From NCBI GenBank assembly GCA_024685385.1, contig JAIKVV010000079.1:83582-147581 (forward strand): a stretch of 64,000 nucleotides of DNA, in the 5' to 3' direction. This document shows positions 41,576-47,014 of this stretch, piece by piece. A program made the translations under genes and the position numbers. This stretch comes from Saccharofermentans sp. (GTDB taxonomy: Bacteria; Bacillota; Clostridia; Saccharofermentanales; Saccharofermentanaceae). Within the stretch, counting starts at the first letter, position 1. Every line of letters starts with the position of its first letter. The notes below the pieces were generated by a model. The model made no database searches. It saw only the letters and a program-made list of their open reading frames with translations, and was not told the DNA's origin.

Positions 41576-41603
41576 TAATACACGTTGCGCTTTTACAGTC
41601 AAG
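41576..41603 (-). promoter_or_regulatory. Promoter of suf operon
   Basis: On minus strand TTGACT (41603-41598), 16-nt spacer, TATTAT (41581-41576). Confidence 0.6.
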
Positions 41604-41716
41604 GGGAAAACGACATATATCGAAAACTTTTTTCGAAAATAACTATTTTTTCGACTTCATATGATACACTTTTACAAGCAAATGAAAATCATATCGGACA
41701 TAAGGGAGGACGGATT

Positions 41717-42400
41717 ATGAATTGCCCGGAGATATTTAAGGATAAGAAACTGAATGTAATCGTAGGCGCATACGGGAGCGGCAAATCCGAGATCTCGGTC
41801 AATGCGGCTTTCGCAATGAGGCAGGCTTTTCCAGAACCCGAGAAGATACTGCTTGCCGACATGGACATCGTAAATCCTTTTTACCGGTCTGCTGATGCGG
41901 CAAGCATATTGGAGGAGAAGGGGATAAAGGTGGTAGCTCCCGCTTATGCGAGATCCAACGTTGATTCGCCTATACTTACGGGTGAAATGTATATTGTTTT
42001 CGATGATCCGGCTTACAGAGGCGTATTCGATATAGGAGGAGAGGACATGGGCGCGGTAGTTCTGGGATCCTTAAAGTCCCGTATGGAAACCATACCTTAT
42101 CAGGTCCTCATGGCCGTAAATACGCTGAGACCATTTACATCGGATCCGGCTCAGATCGCTGAGATGACCGTTGAGCTTTCAGCAGCATCAGGACTTTCGA
42201 TCGCAGGCTATATCAACAACACCAATCTTCTTGATGAAACCGACCCGGAAATGCTTGAAGAAGGTGAGGCAATGATCCTGGAGGCTTCCAAACTTACCGG
42301 CGTTCCGCTTGTCCTTACGACCGTGATGGGCCATGTTGAAGGTCTTAAGTCACAAAGTGAGATTTTCGAGATGGACAAGAGGATTTTCTACGATTATTGA
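41717..42400 (+). CDS. P-loop NTPase of unknown function
   Basis: 'LNVIVGAYGSGKSEISVNAA' Walker A; 'ILLADMDIVNPFYRS'; ATG 41717 with SD GGGAGGA (ORF-track start is upstream). Confidence 0.8.
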   Translation: MNCPEIFKDKKLNVIVGAYGSGKSEISVNAAFAMRQAFPEPEKILLADMDIVNPFYRSADAASILEEKGIKVVAPAYARSNVDSPILTGEMYIVFDDPAYRGVFDIGGEDMGAVVLGSLKSRMETIPYQVLMAVNTLRPFTSDPAQIAEMTVELSAASGLSIAGYINNTNLLDETDPEMLEEGEAMILEASKLTGVPLVLTTVMGHVEGLKSQSEIFEMDKRIFYDY

Positions 42401-42476: not shown

Positions 42477-43853
42477 ATGGGATTAATCAGTTTGGTTAAG
42501 AACGTAGCTGGTGTTATCGGTTCTTCAGTTTCTTCTGAGTTCGCAGATCAATACCAGGAAGTGTTCACATGCGACTCGCTCGGTGACAAGGTATTGCTCC
42601 GTAAAGGCGCGGCTCGCAATGAGAAGGGAAGGAATAAGGGAAGTACTGATGTAATTACACAGGGTTCCATTATCTTTGTTCCTGAAGGTATGGCAGTTTT
42701 ACTCGTTGACGGTGGTCAGGTAATCGACTTCACTGATCAGGCAGGTTACTATCGTTGGGATTCCTCAACATCACCTTCTGTATTGAGTGACAAGCATTTC
42801 GGCACAAACCTCGTAAAGTCCATTTCTGATACATGGGATCGTATGAGGGCAGCTGGTGAGATCACAAAGCAGCAGAGGATCTACTTTGTTAACTTGCTCG
42901 AGATGAGGGACAACAACTTCGGTACGGCAACACCTTTGCCTTATCCGGATCCTGAATACCGTAACATCTATGTAAGGATCAACGGTACATTCTCTTTCGT
43001 AGTAGAGAATCCTGTCCAGTTCTTCAAGTTCGTTACAGGTAATGTTGCCGGTGATTACACAGTAGAGATGCTCATGGGTACGCCCGCGAGCCCGAAGCAG
43101 CCCCGTCAGGAGTTCCTCGATCATATGACCGAAGTTCTCAACAGATGCGGAAGCGAAGACCGTATCCTGTTCTCCACGCTGCCTTCCAAGCAGTCTCAGC
43201 TCCGTAAGTACATGGCTGAGTGCCTCGACGAAGACTGGCTCCAGAACAGAGGTATCATCGTTCAGAACGTTGCTATCAACGCCATCACACCTGATGACAA
43301 GTCTCGTGAGAGAATCGAGCAGGTCGACCAGGCAAAGATGTTCGGTTCCGATCCTTCAGCTCTTGCAGCTCAGCAGGTCCTCGGAACAACGCAGGCTATG
43401 AATACTGCAGCAGCCAATGCAAATGGCGCCGTAAACGGCTTCATGGGCATGGGTATGGTTGGCGGAATGCAGGGAGTTCAGGGCGGCAACCAGGCAGCCT
43501 TCAACTTCTTAGGCCAGCAGCAACAGCAGCAGGCAGCCGCAGCAGCAGCTCCCGTTGCAGGCGCAGCAGTAGTTGCAGGCGCAGCTCCGGCAGGTTGGAC
43601 ATGCGAGTGCGGTCAGACCGGTAACACCGGCAAGTTCTGCTCTGAGTGCGGCAAGCCTCAGCCGGCACCGGCTCCTGCAGCAGCAGGTTGGGATTGTGAG
43701 TGCGGCCAGAAGGGCAACACAGGCAAGTTCTGCTCCGAGTGCGGCAAGCCTCAGCCCGCAGCAGCTCCCGCAGCATGCCCTAAGTGCGGATATACTCCCG
43801 CTGACGGCAAGCTCGGCAAGTTCTGCCCTGAGTGCGGCGAGAAGATCGAATAA
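42477..43853 (+). CDS. SPFH-domain protein with C-terminal tandem zinc ribbons
   Basis: 'GSIIFVPEGMAVLLVDGGQVIDFTDQAGYYRWD' and 'YPDPEYRNIYVRINGTFSFVV' resemble the YdjI-type SPFH family; three CxCGQ/CPKCG..CPECG ribbons. Confidence 0.82.
   Translation: MGLISLVKNVAGVIGSSVSSEFADQYQEVFTCDSLGDKVLLRKGAARNEKGRNKGSTDVITQGSIIFVPEGMAVLLVDGGQVIDFTDQAGYYRWDSSTSPSVLSDKHFGTNLVKSISDTWDRMRAAGEITKQQRIYFVNLLEMRDNNFGTATPLPYPDPEYRNIYVRINGTFSFVVENPVQFFKFVTGNVAGDYTVEMLMGTPASPKQPRQEFLDHMTEVLNRCGSEDRILFSTLPSKQSQLRKYMAECLDEDWLQNRGIIVQNVAINAITPDDKSRERIEQVDQAKMFGSDPSALAAQQVLGTTQAMNTAAANANGAVNGFMGMGMVGGMQGVQGGNQAAFNFLGQQQQQQAAAAAAPVAGAAVVAGAAPAGWTCECGQTGNTGKFCSECGKPQPAPAPAAAGWDCECGQKGNTGKFCSECGKPQPAAAPAACPKCGYTPADGKLGKFCPECGEKIE
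43593..43778 (+). repeat. 93-bp tandem duplication encoding the zinc ribbon GWxCECGQxGNTGKFCSECGKPQPA
   Basis: Two copies read directly from sequence, period 31 aa. Confidence 0.9.
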
Positions 43854-43874
43854 TCAGATTCTGATCAACTATCA

Positions 43875-43906
43875 GGGGTTGCCTTTCACAAGGCAACCCC
43901 TTTTTT
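43875..43906 (+). terminator. Intrinsic terminator
   Basis: GGGGTTGCCTT/AAGGCAACCCC then TTTTTT. Confidence 0.92.
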
Positions 43907-44063
43907 ATTCCGATCGGGAAATGCGGGGCAACAGTCCTTTCCAAAATGCCTGTAATGCCTGAAAACATTTATTTATATTATTATTACTTGCTTGTAATCA
44001 AGGCAAATTTGTATTATATTTTTTAGTATCTACTACTATGTGCAAACGGAGGATTGTAGAGGT

Positions 44064-46973
44064 ATGGATATCAACGAGATCAAAGCAAAGGGACCGTTTT
44101 TCGGTGGTTGGAACATAAATTCCGCGATCGGTACAGGCTCATGCGGTACCGTATATGAGATTTCCAATGCCATGTCTGCCGGAAAGGCAGCCATGAAGGT
44201 GATCCACACTAAGGATTCTTCCACAGCTGATAAAGTTGTAGAAGTTATCGGCAAGTACGATATCCTCAAGGGAAATGAAAACATTTTCCTTGATCATGAG
44301 ATTTCAAGGATAGATAACTCTGACGGATCAGCCGATGTGCTCGTCAAGATGCCTTTCAGGCAGACTTTGGCCGTATATGCGCAGGGCCGTGAACTTGACA
44401 GGGATGAGGTAGCCAAGCTGGGCGTTGACATTTCATCTGCTCTTGAATTCTGCGAATATAAGAACATCAAGCACGGAGCGCTCAAGCCTGCGAATATCTT
44501 CCTTAACGATAACGGTTCGTTTGCACTGGGTGATTTCGGAACGATCGATATAGCAAAACTCATCGAATCTTCGGGTGCTCCCGACAGAATGGATTATTGC
44601 TCGCCCGAGGTCGGACGTGAATCCTCTTTTGACAATACGGCTGATCTCTATGCACTCGGAATGGTTCTCTATATCCAGCTCAACGGTAAGAGAGGTCCGT
44701 TCCTTCCTCCGGATCCCGAGGACTTTACGGCAGATGATCTTAAAGAAGCTCTTGACAAGAGGATGGCAGGTGAAGCCTTTAATCCTCCTTCAAAGGGCGG
44801 CTTAAGATTTAATGCCATCATCAATAATGCATGCAATGCTGATCCCGACAAGAGATATTTCTCTGCGGCTAAGATGAAGGTTGATCTTAAGAAACTCCTG
44901 CCTGACGGAGGTCAGACAGTTGCCGCGGCAGGTATAGCTGCAGGAGCTGCAGCCGCTGCAGCAAATTCACCGTTCAAACCTGCATCGTCAGCTTTTAAAC
45001 CTGCTGAGAAGTCTCCGTTTAAGCCTGCTGCGACAAGACCCGCAGCAGCTGCTGCAGATAACTCGAATTCATTGTTTAAGCCTTTGGGAAATGCTGCAAA
45101 CAAGTCCGCCGGAGAGACAAATTCACCTTTCAAGCCTTTGTCATCTTCTGCTGCAGCATCTAAGCCTGCCGATAATTCGAATTCGCCTTTCAAGCCTTTG
45201 GCTTCTGCTGAAACTGCAAAGCCGGCTGATAATGCAAACTCTCCGTTCAAACCTTTCGCATCGGCAAACGGCAAGGCTGCTGATAATTCGAATTCGCCTT
45301 TCAAGCCTTTTGCTTCTTCCGATACGGCAAAGCCGGCTGATAATGCTAACTCTCCGTTTAAGCCATTAGCATCTGCTTCCGGCAATTCGGACAATTCGAA
45401 TTCTCCCTTTAAACCCTTGGGTAATGCCGCTGCATCAAAGGCTTCCGACAGTTCAAATTCACCTTTCAAGCCTTTGGGGGCTGCAGCTGACAATAAAGCG
45501 GCCGACAACTCAAATTCTCCTTTCAAGCCTCTGGCAAAGACGGAGACAAAAGCGGCTGCTCCCGCTGAAAACTCTCCGTTTAAGCCTCTCGGTAAGACTG
45601 AGACAAAGGCAGCGCCCGCTGCATCCGTTCCCGCAGATAATTCTCCTTTTAAACCGCTTGCAAAGCAGGAGAACAAAGCCGGAGACAATGCCGATTCTCC
45701 TTTCAAGCCTTCAGGCAGACCTGCAGCATCTGCATCAGATACCAAACCTGCAGACAATGCAAATTCACCTTTTAAACCCTTGGCTAATGCTAATGCTGCC
45801 AAGACTCCTGCAAAGGAAACAGGCAGACCTGCGGCAGCTGCAACCAGACCCGTAGCCGGGGCTAAGCCAGCTGCTCTTTCCAACAAACCGGTTACACCGA
45901 AGGCTACAGGAACAGCAGGAAAGCCGGCTCAGTCTGTTGCCATGCTGAAGGCCGAGCAGGCAAAAGAAGATGCGAAGAAAGCTGCTGAAGAGAAGGTCGG
46001 AACATCCGCTATGGCTGCAAGGCTTGCCAGGACTGAGAATAAAACTGCCGATAAGAAACCTGCTGACAAGAAGGAAGCCGCGGCTTCCGCATCTGCAATG
46101 GCATCAAGGCTTGCCAAGACCGAAAGTAAAGACTCTAAGCCTGCTGATAAGAAAGAAGCACCGGCTGCCGTTAATTCTGCATTTGTTCCTAAGAATTCAA
46201 AGCCTGAAACCGGTAAAGCCACTCTTGCGAAGGATACGAAGCCGGCCGATAACGCCAATTCTCCTTTCAAACCTGCAAGCGCTGCAAAAGACAAGCCTGC
46301 TGTTGACACAACTGCTTCCGGATCTCCTTTCAGACCCGCTGCCAGCGGTGCGGATTCTAAGGTTAATTCAACGGCTTGGGCAAGAAGCGGCGGAACTTCC
46401 TCATCCGTTGCATCCCAGAGAGGCAGTAATGACAAATTGTCTGAAGGCTTCCTGCTCAGCAGCGACCAGTATAAGGAAGAGAACAAGCTTCTGTCTTTCG
46501 TTAAATCCAAGACAGGCAAGATCGTAATCGGTGTACTTGCCATTGCTCTTGTAATATTGATCTTTACTTTGATCAATAATTCCGGTAAGAATACTGCTCC
46601 TGTTGAGTCTTCTGACACTACGACTACAACAACGGAAGCAACGACTACCACAGCGACTGAAGAATCCACTACGACCGAATCAGAGGAAGTTACCACAACT
46701 ACAACGGAGGAACCGACTACGACAACGGAGGATGAAACAACGACTACGACTTCTACCGAAGAGGCGACGACCACGACTAAGGCAACCACCAAGGCTACCA
46801 CAACGGCTCGTCACACAACGAGAAGAACGACAAGACATACCACCAGATCCACTACAAGGTCCACAACAAGGTCGACTACAAGGTCAACGACTCAGGGCAC
46901 TACAAAGGGCACGACCAAGGATACGACCAAGGATACGACGACCAAGGGCACCACATTCGGTGGCGATTATTAA
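44064..46973 (+). CDS. Predicted Ser/Thr pseudokinase with SPFKP-repeat linker, one TM helix and Thr-rich C-terminal tail
   Basis: Kinase-like N-lobe 'GTGSCGTVYEI...AAMKVIH', altered catalytic loop 'HGALKPANIFL', 'LGDFG', 'DYCSPE'; about 18 SPFKP-like repeats; TM 'IVIGVLAIALVILIFTLI'; TTTTTEATTTT/STTRSTTR tail. Confidence 0.8.
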   Translation: MDINEIKAKGPFFGGWNINSAIGTGSCGTVYEISNAMSAGKAAMKVIHTKDSSTADKVVEVIGKYDILKGNENIFLDHEISRIDNSDGSADVLVKMPFRQTLAVYAQGRELDRDEVAKLGVDISSALEFCEYKNIKHGALKPANIFLNDNGSFALGDFGTIDIAKLIESSGAPDRMDYCSPEVGRESSFDNTADLYALGMVLYIQLNGKRGPFLPPDPEDFTADDLKEALDKRMAGEAFNPPSKGGLRFNAIINNACNADPDKRYFSAAKMKVDLKKLLPDGGQTVAAAGIAAGAAAAAANSPFKPASSAFKPAEKSPFKPAATRPAAAAADNSNSLFKPLGNAANKSAGETNSPFKPLSSSAAASKPADNSNSPFKPLASAETAKPADNANSPFKPFASANGKAADNSNSPFKPFASSDTAKPADNANSPFKPLASASGNSDNSNSPFKPLGNAAASKASDSSNSPFKPLGAAADNKAADNSNSPFKPLAKTETKAAAPAENSPFKPLGKTETKAAPAASVPADNSPFKPLAKQENKAGDNADSPFKPSGRPAASASDTKPADNANSPFKPLANANAAKTPAKETGRPAAAATRPVAGAKPAALSNKPVTPKATGTAGKPAQSVAMLKAEQAKEDAKKAAEEKVGTSAMAARLARTENKTADKKPADKKEAAASASAMASRLAKTESKDSKPADKKEAPAAVNSAFVPKNSKPETGKATLAKDTKPADNANSPFKPASAAKDKPAVDTTASGSPFRPAASGADSKVNSTAWARSGGTSSSVASQRGSNDKLSEGFLLSSDQYKEENKLLSFVKSKTGKIVIGVLAIALVILIFTLINNSGKNTAPVESSDTTTTTTEATTTTATEESTTTESEEVTTTTTEEPTTTTEDETTTTTSTEEATTTTKATTKATTTARHTTRRTTRHTTRSTTRSTTRSTTRSTTQGTTKGTTKDTTKDTTTKGTTFGGDY
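44964..46340 (+). repeat. Degenerate coding repeat (N)SPFKP(L/A/F) spaced by Ala/Ser/Asp-rich linkers
   Basis: About 18 copies counted in the translation. Confidence 0.9.
46600..46960 (+). repeat. Thr-rich low-complexity repeats including 12-nt STTR units
   Basis: RSTTRSTTRSTTRSTTQGTTKGTTKDTTKD read from translation. Confidence 0.9.
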
Positions 46974-46978
46974 TCCAT

Positions 46979-47014
46979 AATCAATGGGAAAGGGCTTCGG
47001 CCCTTTCCTTGATT
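46979..47014 (+). terminator. Intrinsic terminator
   Basis: GGAAAGGGC-TTCG-GCCCTTTCC with outer AATCAA/TTGATT. Confidence 0.85.

Follow-up and report, generated by a model that had tools for sequence, protein, structure and literature searches.

The gene at positions 44064–46973 of a Saccharofermentans sp. contig segment (64,000 nucleotides in full, hereafter the window) raises the question of what a membrane protein does when it joins a kinase-like domain without its catalytic Asp to a long array of one short motif. The initial annotation had proposed a scaffold whose repeats either dock a cytosolic partner or are phosphorylated on the Ser before Pro. On sequence and structure-model evidence, we consider it somewhat probable that the protein serves as a pseudokinase scaffold, anchored in the membrane, on which a lineage-specific docking motif is presented many times.

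The ORF runs from the ATG at 44064 to the last stop base at 46973 on the forward strand and encodes 969 residues: a kinase domain (16–278), a linker of ~500 residues (~300–810), a TM helix (820–838), and a Thr-rich tail that continues to residue 969. These coordinates agree with the initial annotation, and the two SAMA(A/S)RLA(R/K)TE modules, the single TM helix, and the Thr-rich/(STTR)n tail that it described were all seen. Hydropathy and composition were the sole basis for topology and disorder, and the predicted topology is consistent with an extracytoplasmic location of the Thr-rich tail. Since it lies upstream of the Shine-Dalgarno-like sequence, an in-frame GTG (44040) is the less likely start. 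The strong terminator upstream (43874–43901) and the hairpin past the stop indicate that the gene is probably a separate transcription unit, transcribed alone. The features are summarized in Table 1.

Table 1. Features of the pseudokinase locus (positions in the window).
Feature	Position	Strand	Basis
Intrinsic terminator, 12 bp stem and T run, between the SPFH gene and the pseudokinase gene	43874..43901	+	
Promoter-like TTGTAA-17-TATATT, weak, 9/12, about chance expectation for the region	43992..44020	+	
Shine-Dalgarno-like GGAGG, 11 nt before ATG 44064	44048..44052	+	Direct sequence
Whole gene, membrane-anchored pseudokinase, 969 aa	44064..46973	+	ORF and translation
Kinase-like domain, residues 16–278	44109..44897	+	Pfam, PDB sequence search, AlphaFold2, Foldseek
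Lys45, β3 (AxK) lysine, retained; reads AMK45	44196..44198	+	Alignment
H137-G138-A139 in place of HRD; catalytic Asp absent	44472..44480	+	Alignment
D157-F158-G159, metal-binding DFG, retained	44532..44540	+	Alignment
Ala/Ser/Asn/Asp-rich linker, S[PAL]F[KR]P in 18 copies, of which 15 read exactly SPFKP	44967..46337	+	
First module, SAMAARLARTE	46005..46037	+	
Second module, SAMASRLAKTE	46092..46124	+	
Single TM helix, residues 820–838, N-terminal flank net positive	46521..46577	+	Hydropathy
Thr-rich/(STTR)n/(TTKD)n C-terminal tail, predicted outside	46617..46970	+	
Palindromic terminator-like hairpin directly past the pseudokinase gene	46987..47008	.	Scan, listed as - strand

The neighbours analysed were SUF, SPFH, and oxidoreductase genes. 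The upstream gene (42477–43853) encodes an SPFH/Band-7 protein with three zinc-ribbon-like modules that is conserved in numerous MAGs of Clostridia; only its adjacency in two species ties it to the pseudokinase. The 271-aa ORF at 41585–42400 gave no match in Pfam, NCBIfam, or PADLOC.

The kinase-like domain and its missing catalytic Asp

PF00069 matched residues 17–265 with an E value of 1.5e-20, and PknB was the first match in a PDB sequence search with the kinase-like domain. The AlphaFold2 model had a mean pLDDT of 90 and a pTM of 0.89 when 21 viral-contig kinases were added to the input, compared with a pLDDT of 39 for the two orthologous sequences by themselves. A Foldseek search with the model gave PknB, Nek2, and Aurora as the nearest solved folds, PknB being the top match (E = 1e-15). 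These results indicate a Hanks-type Ser/Thr kinase fold and bear out the kinase-like N-terminus of the initial annotation, as do the glycine loop (GTGSCGTVY), the AxK lysine, and the DFG motif, all of which were found.

The catalytic loop reads HGALKPAN in place of HRDxKPxN, with Lys141 and Asn144 retained, and the replacement of the catalytic Asp by Ala noted earlier is thus present in the sequence. SPE stands where APE is expected. The GT..Y threonine of the activation segment, which precedes it, is also lost (window, GAPDRMDYCSPE; ortholog, GAPDRIDYASPE; compare GTPDYMAPE, for example, in active relatives). The HRD Arg, the HRD Asp, and the GT..Y Thr are all absent from both the window protein and its ortholog in genome G035. 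Compared with the relatives, the αC region is shortened, and it is uncertain whether E60, which is Asp in the ortholog, represents its Glu. Across a 23-row alignment (A3), the Asp was missing only in these two proteins and was present in the other 21 kinases; moreover, no shifted Asp that could compensate for HGA was seen in the alignment. A pseudokinase is defined by sequence as having lost at least one of the β3 Lys, the HRD Asp, and the DFG Asp (PMC12599244), and the change from HRD to HGA places both orthologs within this definition. Its fixation in the ortholog, the purifying selection described below, and the lack of a substitute Asp uphold the pseudokinase status. Retention of Lys45, Asn144, and the DFG Asp157 together with loss of the HRD Asp and the GT..Y Thr suggests that the domain binds nucleotide without normal phosphotransfer; it is probably nucleotide-binding and phosphotransfer-dead.

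The domain might instead be active in spite of the missing HRD Asp, as an atypical kinase or another nucleotidyl enzyme, with weak HER3-like kinase activity or some other transfer reaction. Its glycine loop and the residues Lys45, Asn144, and Asp157 have been preserved under strong constraint. HER3, which lacks the αC Glu and the same Asp, nevertheless binds ATP together with one cation and autophosphorylates weakly (PMC4718504), and SidJ is a pseudokinase with another activity (PMC6858067). We judge this explanation improbable, since the HRD Arg, the HRD Asp, and the GT..Y Thr are gone in both orthologs, the αC Glu is not clearly kept, and the Asp is present in all 21 other kinases of alignment A3.

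A single close ortholog was found among the 85 genomes of the genus, in G035, and the pseudokinase is thus known from two species only. The kinase domains are 78% identical, the ortholog likewise sits between the SPFH and oxidoreductase genes, and it keeps HGA, the array, the TM helix, and the Thr-rich tail. The dN/dS between the two kinase domains was ~0.065, which is approximate because dS is near saturation; the values for the SPFH neighbour and the oxidoreductase were 0.073 and 0.049, respectively, and that for the linker was 0.16 on a rough alignment. Homologues with an intact HRD and no repeats had been named earlier as the sign of a local decay. Such proteins were found only at 29–34% identity over the aligned stretch (alignment A2), as active Hanks kinases of G048, G009, and G030, whereas the G035 ortholog keeps both features. 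The occurrence in two species only and the 57/111-nt period in part of the array (see below) would suit a decaying kinase gene with repeat slippage. We nevertheless reject local decay as very improbable because the ortholog retains all features at this low dN/dS, and the ORFs are intact in both species.

The three distant relatives resemble the window protein in the kinase domain, and that of G048 also has a single TM helix and a Thr-rich outer stretch. A PP2C phosphatase, assigned by eye from the sequence, adjoins the kinase gene in G048 and G030. In the kinase tree, the pair, at the end of a long stem, falls among the non-PASTA kinases; the placement is weakly supported and gives no firm ancestry. 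No close relatives by kinase domain were found in the genome contig collection, from which the own and near genomes are perhaps absent, and phage kinases were only distantly related (24–27% identity among the matches listed). The PADLOC models mad6 and PD-T4-6 matched the kinase domain, as would be expected of an anti-phage defence kinase of the MADS6 or PD-T4-6 type. However, the matches are limited to the generic kinase domain (NCBIfam MADS6, 56 bits against a cut-off of 460 bits), and the SUF, SPFH, and oxidoreductase neighbours are unrelated to a defence system. A defence role is therefore scarcely credible.

The motif array and its relatives across the genus

The linker had been credited with about 18 SPFKP copies. 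This number stands for the pattern S[PAL]F[KR]P, to which one SAFVP may be added, whereas exact SPFKP occurs only 15 times. The spacing is mostly 17–23 residues within the main run. Shuffled linkers contained on average 0.0065 SPFKP (maximum 1 in 2000 shuffles), and [SN][PA]FKP was observed 16 times against 0/3000 linker shuffles. The linker and juxtamembrane region contain 22 Phe, of which 19 lie within the motif or SAFVP and 2 more follow it directly, as FKPF. The 18 copies are encoded by fourteen different DNA versions, with TCN as the Ser codons of SPFKP. Pairwise differences were 379 synonymous and 95 nonsynonymous in the motif codons and mainly nonsynonymous in the spacer codons, a comparison in which the copies were picked by pattern and the pattern-fixed positions were therefore incapable of varying. 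One portion of the array repeats with a 57/111-nt period and therefore arose by tandem duplication. An extended decamer, D-x-[SA]-x-[ST]-[PAL]-F-[KR]-P-[LF], occurs nine times in the window protein and four times in its G035 ortholog.

We searched for the motif in genomes of the genus and the order. Two adjacent S[PA]FKP occurred in 15/85 genomes of the genus and in 0/103 others of the order; reversed-pattern control pairs occurred in neither the genus nor the rest of the order. Clusters of at least two S[PA]FKP within 700 bases numbered 16 in G001–G042, compared with 1 for the codon-permuted FS[PA]KP (counted from the match lists). Both comparisons point to recurrence in unrelated proteins beyond chance, which is one criterion for a short linear motif. 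Counted over all 85 genomes, S[PA]FKP-coding matches were hardly more numerous than those of the codon-permuted control (334 and 292, respectively) and do not support an enrichment in raw abundance, so our claim is limited to the clustering and conservation of the motif.

The unrelated carriers comprise two surface protein families (A and B), the tail of an NAD-epimerase, zinc-ribbon membrane proteins (G080), and a G004 protein without a recognised domain; they were mostly chosen for holding the motif, except for family B, which was found by homology. The docking motif that the initial annotation had placed on this scaffold is thus not private to the pseudokinase and occurs in unrelated families of the genus and in a surface protein of the same genome, while the scaffold reading itself is supported. 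Although their domain orders are opposite, families A and B and the pseudokinase are all predicted to carry the motif inside and the Thr-rich stretch outside. Several carriers resemble the pseudokinase linker in having Phe motifs amid Ala/Ser/Asn-rich spacers.

Family B proteins consist of a cytosolic N-terminal part, a TM helix, a Thr-rich stretch, and an outer C-terminal domain. A homology search found the family in 65/85 genomes of the genus and in 0/30 others of the taxonomic family; it is genus-wide and, within the taxonomic family, restricted to the genus. The member in the source genome (L132:2041-4341, G000:C30) has three motif copies in the cytosolic part, two reading SAFKP and one NAFKP, and its outer domain gave only a sub-threshold match to CBM39. 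[ST]AFKP was present in all 27 extracted proteins, within FEFDSS(I/V)SAFKP(F/L/I). No other 13-mer of the ~530-residue cytosolic part is as conserved as this island (0.93, against a mean of 0.46); the presence of the motif in the query introduces a small bias. The decamer was present in 25/27 proteins. Family B therefore shows the second hallmark of a short linear motif, a conserved island in a poorly conserved low-complexity region. We regard the invariance in family B, together with the decamer that it shares with the array, as the strongest sign that the repeated unit is a genuine docking motif.

These data bear on two other explanations of the array. Regularly spaced aromatic motifs could act as stickers between spacers and drive self-association or a membrane-bound condensate with no dedicated reader. 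Almost all Phe of the linker lie in the motif, the main run is evenly spaced with Ala/Ser/Asn-rich spacers, and several other carriers have the same make-up. Against this, there is strong constraint on the residues next to the Phe (S-[PA]-F-K-P-[LF], with D and N before), and the single full copy that is invariant in all 27 family B proteins exceeds the needs of a generic sticker; we regard such an array as unlikely, with about one chance in a handful. Alternatively, as the initial annotation had also suggested, the Ser before Pro could be phosphorylated; an active cellular kinase would modify many sites, which would then be read. The Ser is fixed in the 18 copies, which were selected by pattern, and the genome has active kinases. 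Genus-wide, however, the residues before the Phe are S, T, N, or another residue, followed by P or A, and Phe-Lys-Pro is the invariant part; the widespread family B holds SAFKP. This variation before the Phe weakens the phosphorylation reading, which we consider quite improbable, and we retain the docking motif as the preferred reading of the array.

Further carriers were observed in the genus. The NAD-dependent epimerases (L115:1743-4106 and L147:1361-4297) have a tail of 450–650 residues that ends in VVPPGIFAPPPKPG. Besides S[PA]FKP and SGFPR, the tail contains the module AMEARLKQ, which is reminiscent of the SAM.RLA modules in the pseudokinase. Both G001 and G045 have an epimerase-tail protein with AMEARLKQ(T/Q)Q, which is similar to the second pseudokinase module, SAMASRLAKTE; the G045 protein has up to 11 copies of the motif. 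Family A (L117, L118, L122, L123, and L148) has a signal peptide, Thr-rich TTK/TNT repeats, a TM helix, and a long cytosolic C-terminal tail with the short, strongly conserved islands SSNSNQLGxMLAGK, APVWAAP, KSAFF, YGxIVRP, and LEGQRPxIxDP. A search with this tail found the family in 42/85 genomes, and it is absent from the source genome. A zinc-ribbon membrane protein of G048 (L137:938-2923), which was not picked by the motif search, has SPFAP/SAFAQ/NAFAP repeats N-terminal to the TM helix, and the Phe-anchored pattern may therefore be broader than S[PA]FKP.

A putative docking network and known systems

The presence of the motif in many unrelated proteins of the genus suggests a shared putative intracellular binding partner. 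Each motif would be a docking peptide for one common putative cytosolic reader. The ~18 motifs of the array, presumably on the cytosolic side, would recruit or cluster many reader molecules at the membrane and would thereby compete with, or gather, other motif-bearing proteins, clustering, sequestering, or delivering the reader. The pseudokinase domain, if it binds ATP and metal as presumed, may be a nucleotide- or partner-controlled switch rather than a phosphotransferase, and the Thr-rich tail would span the wall or anchor in it. More tentatively, and with slightly less than even confidence, we propose a docking code of the genus in which the Phe-anchored decamer D-x-[SA]-x-S-[PA]-F-K-P-[LF], carried on the cytosolic face by many unrelated and mostly surface-anchored proteins, would be recognised by one common putative cytosolic reader. 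The pseudokinase would be the member with high valency, and nucleotide or outside signals would lead it to cluster, titrate, or switch the network.

Eukaryotic signalling is characterised by repeated linear docking motifs that many unrelated proteins have in common; to our knowledge, such networks have rarely been described in bacteria. The genus carries the signature of such a network, namely a Phe-anchored motif that is invariant in one widespread surface family and was independently amplified in several other proteins, and the largest motif array sits on a pseudokinase under strong constraint. The motif provides a defined peptide bait for a putative bacterial peptide-reading protein, and the pseudokinase is a bacterial case in which a scaffold role is directly testable. 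The array resembles eukaryotic ELM-type motif arrays in being short, Phe-anchored, repeated in low-complexity regions, and common to unrelated proteins; it differs in its occurrence in a bacterial genus and in that the reader domain is only putative. No mention of the S[PA]FKP motif was found in the bacterial literature searched, and no surface-protein study of Saccharofermentans was found.

Like HER3/ErbB3, the window protein has lost the catalytic Asp, kept the β3 Lys, the catalytic-loop Asn, and the DFG Asp, and has a single TM helix and an outer part (PMC4718504). In contrast to HER3, it belongs to the bacterial Ser/Thr kinase lineage, its N-terminus is predicted to lie inside, no receptor domain was seen, a docking-motif array lies between, and nucleotide binding is predicted only. 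Mycobacterial MviN is a lipid II flippase whose phosphorylated pseudokinase domain is bound by the FHA protein FhaA (PMC11898655); both are membrane-tethered bacterial pseudokinases serving, in our case putatively, as protein-binding platforms, but here the kinase fold is combined with a motif array and no flippase. EssB/YukC of type VII secretion in Firmicutes likewise has an N-terminal pseudokinase, one TM helix, and an outer part, with all catalytic motifs degraded in EssB (PMC9600267). EssB has no motif array, however, no T7SS gene is among the neighbours analysed here, and the window protein gave no YukC/EssB match in Pfam or NCBIfam. Bacterial pseudokinases as membrane scaffolds are thus already known from MviN and EssB.

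In regard to other families, the PASTA kinases (PknB/Stk1) share the kinase fold, PknB being the closest solved one, and membership was rejected because the NCBIfam score was 68.5 bits against a cut-off of 450 bits and Pfam gave no PASTA domain. DYD pseudokinases have Arg for the β3 Lys and a DYD motif; ActPs2 has Arg for the β3 Lys, Asn for the HRD Asp, and a mostly deleted DFG; and GLW pseudokinases have GLW for HRD (PMC12599244). By sequence, none of the checked families of that study fits a domain that keeps Lys45 and DFG and reads HGA. A different kinase-like protein of 785 residues, encoded by a minus-strand ORF in G042 (L011), reads HKN for HRD and has a glycine loop that is destroyed, one TM helix, and an outer domain that is repeated; it is a probable further pseudokinase of the genus.
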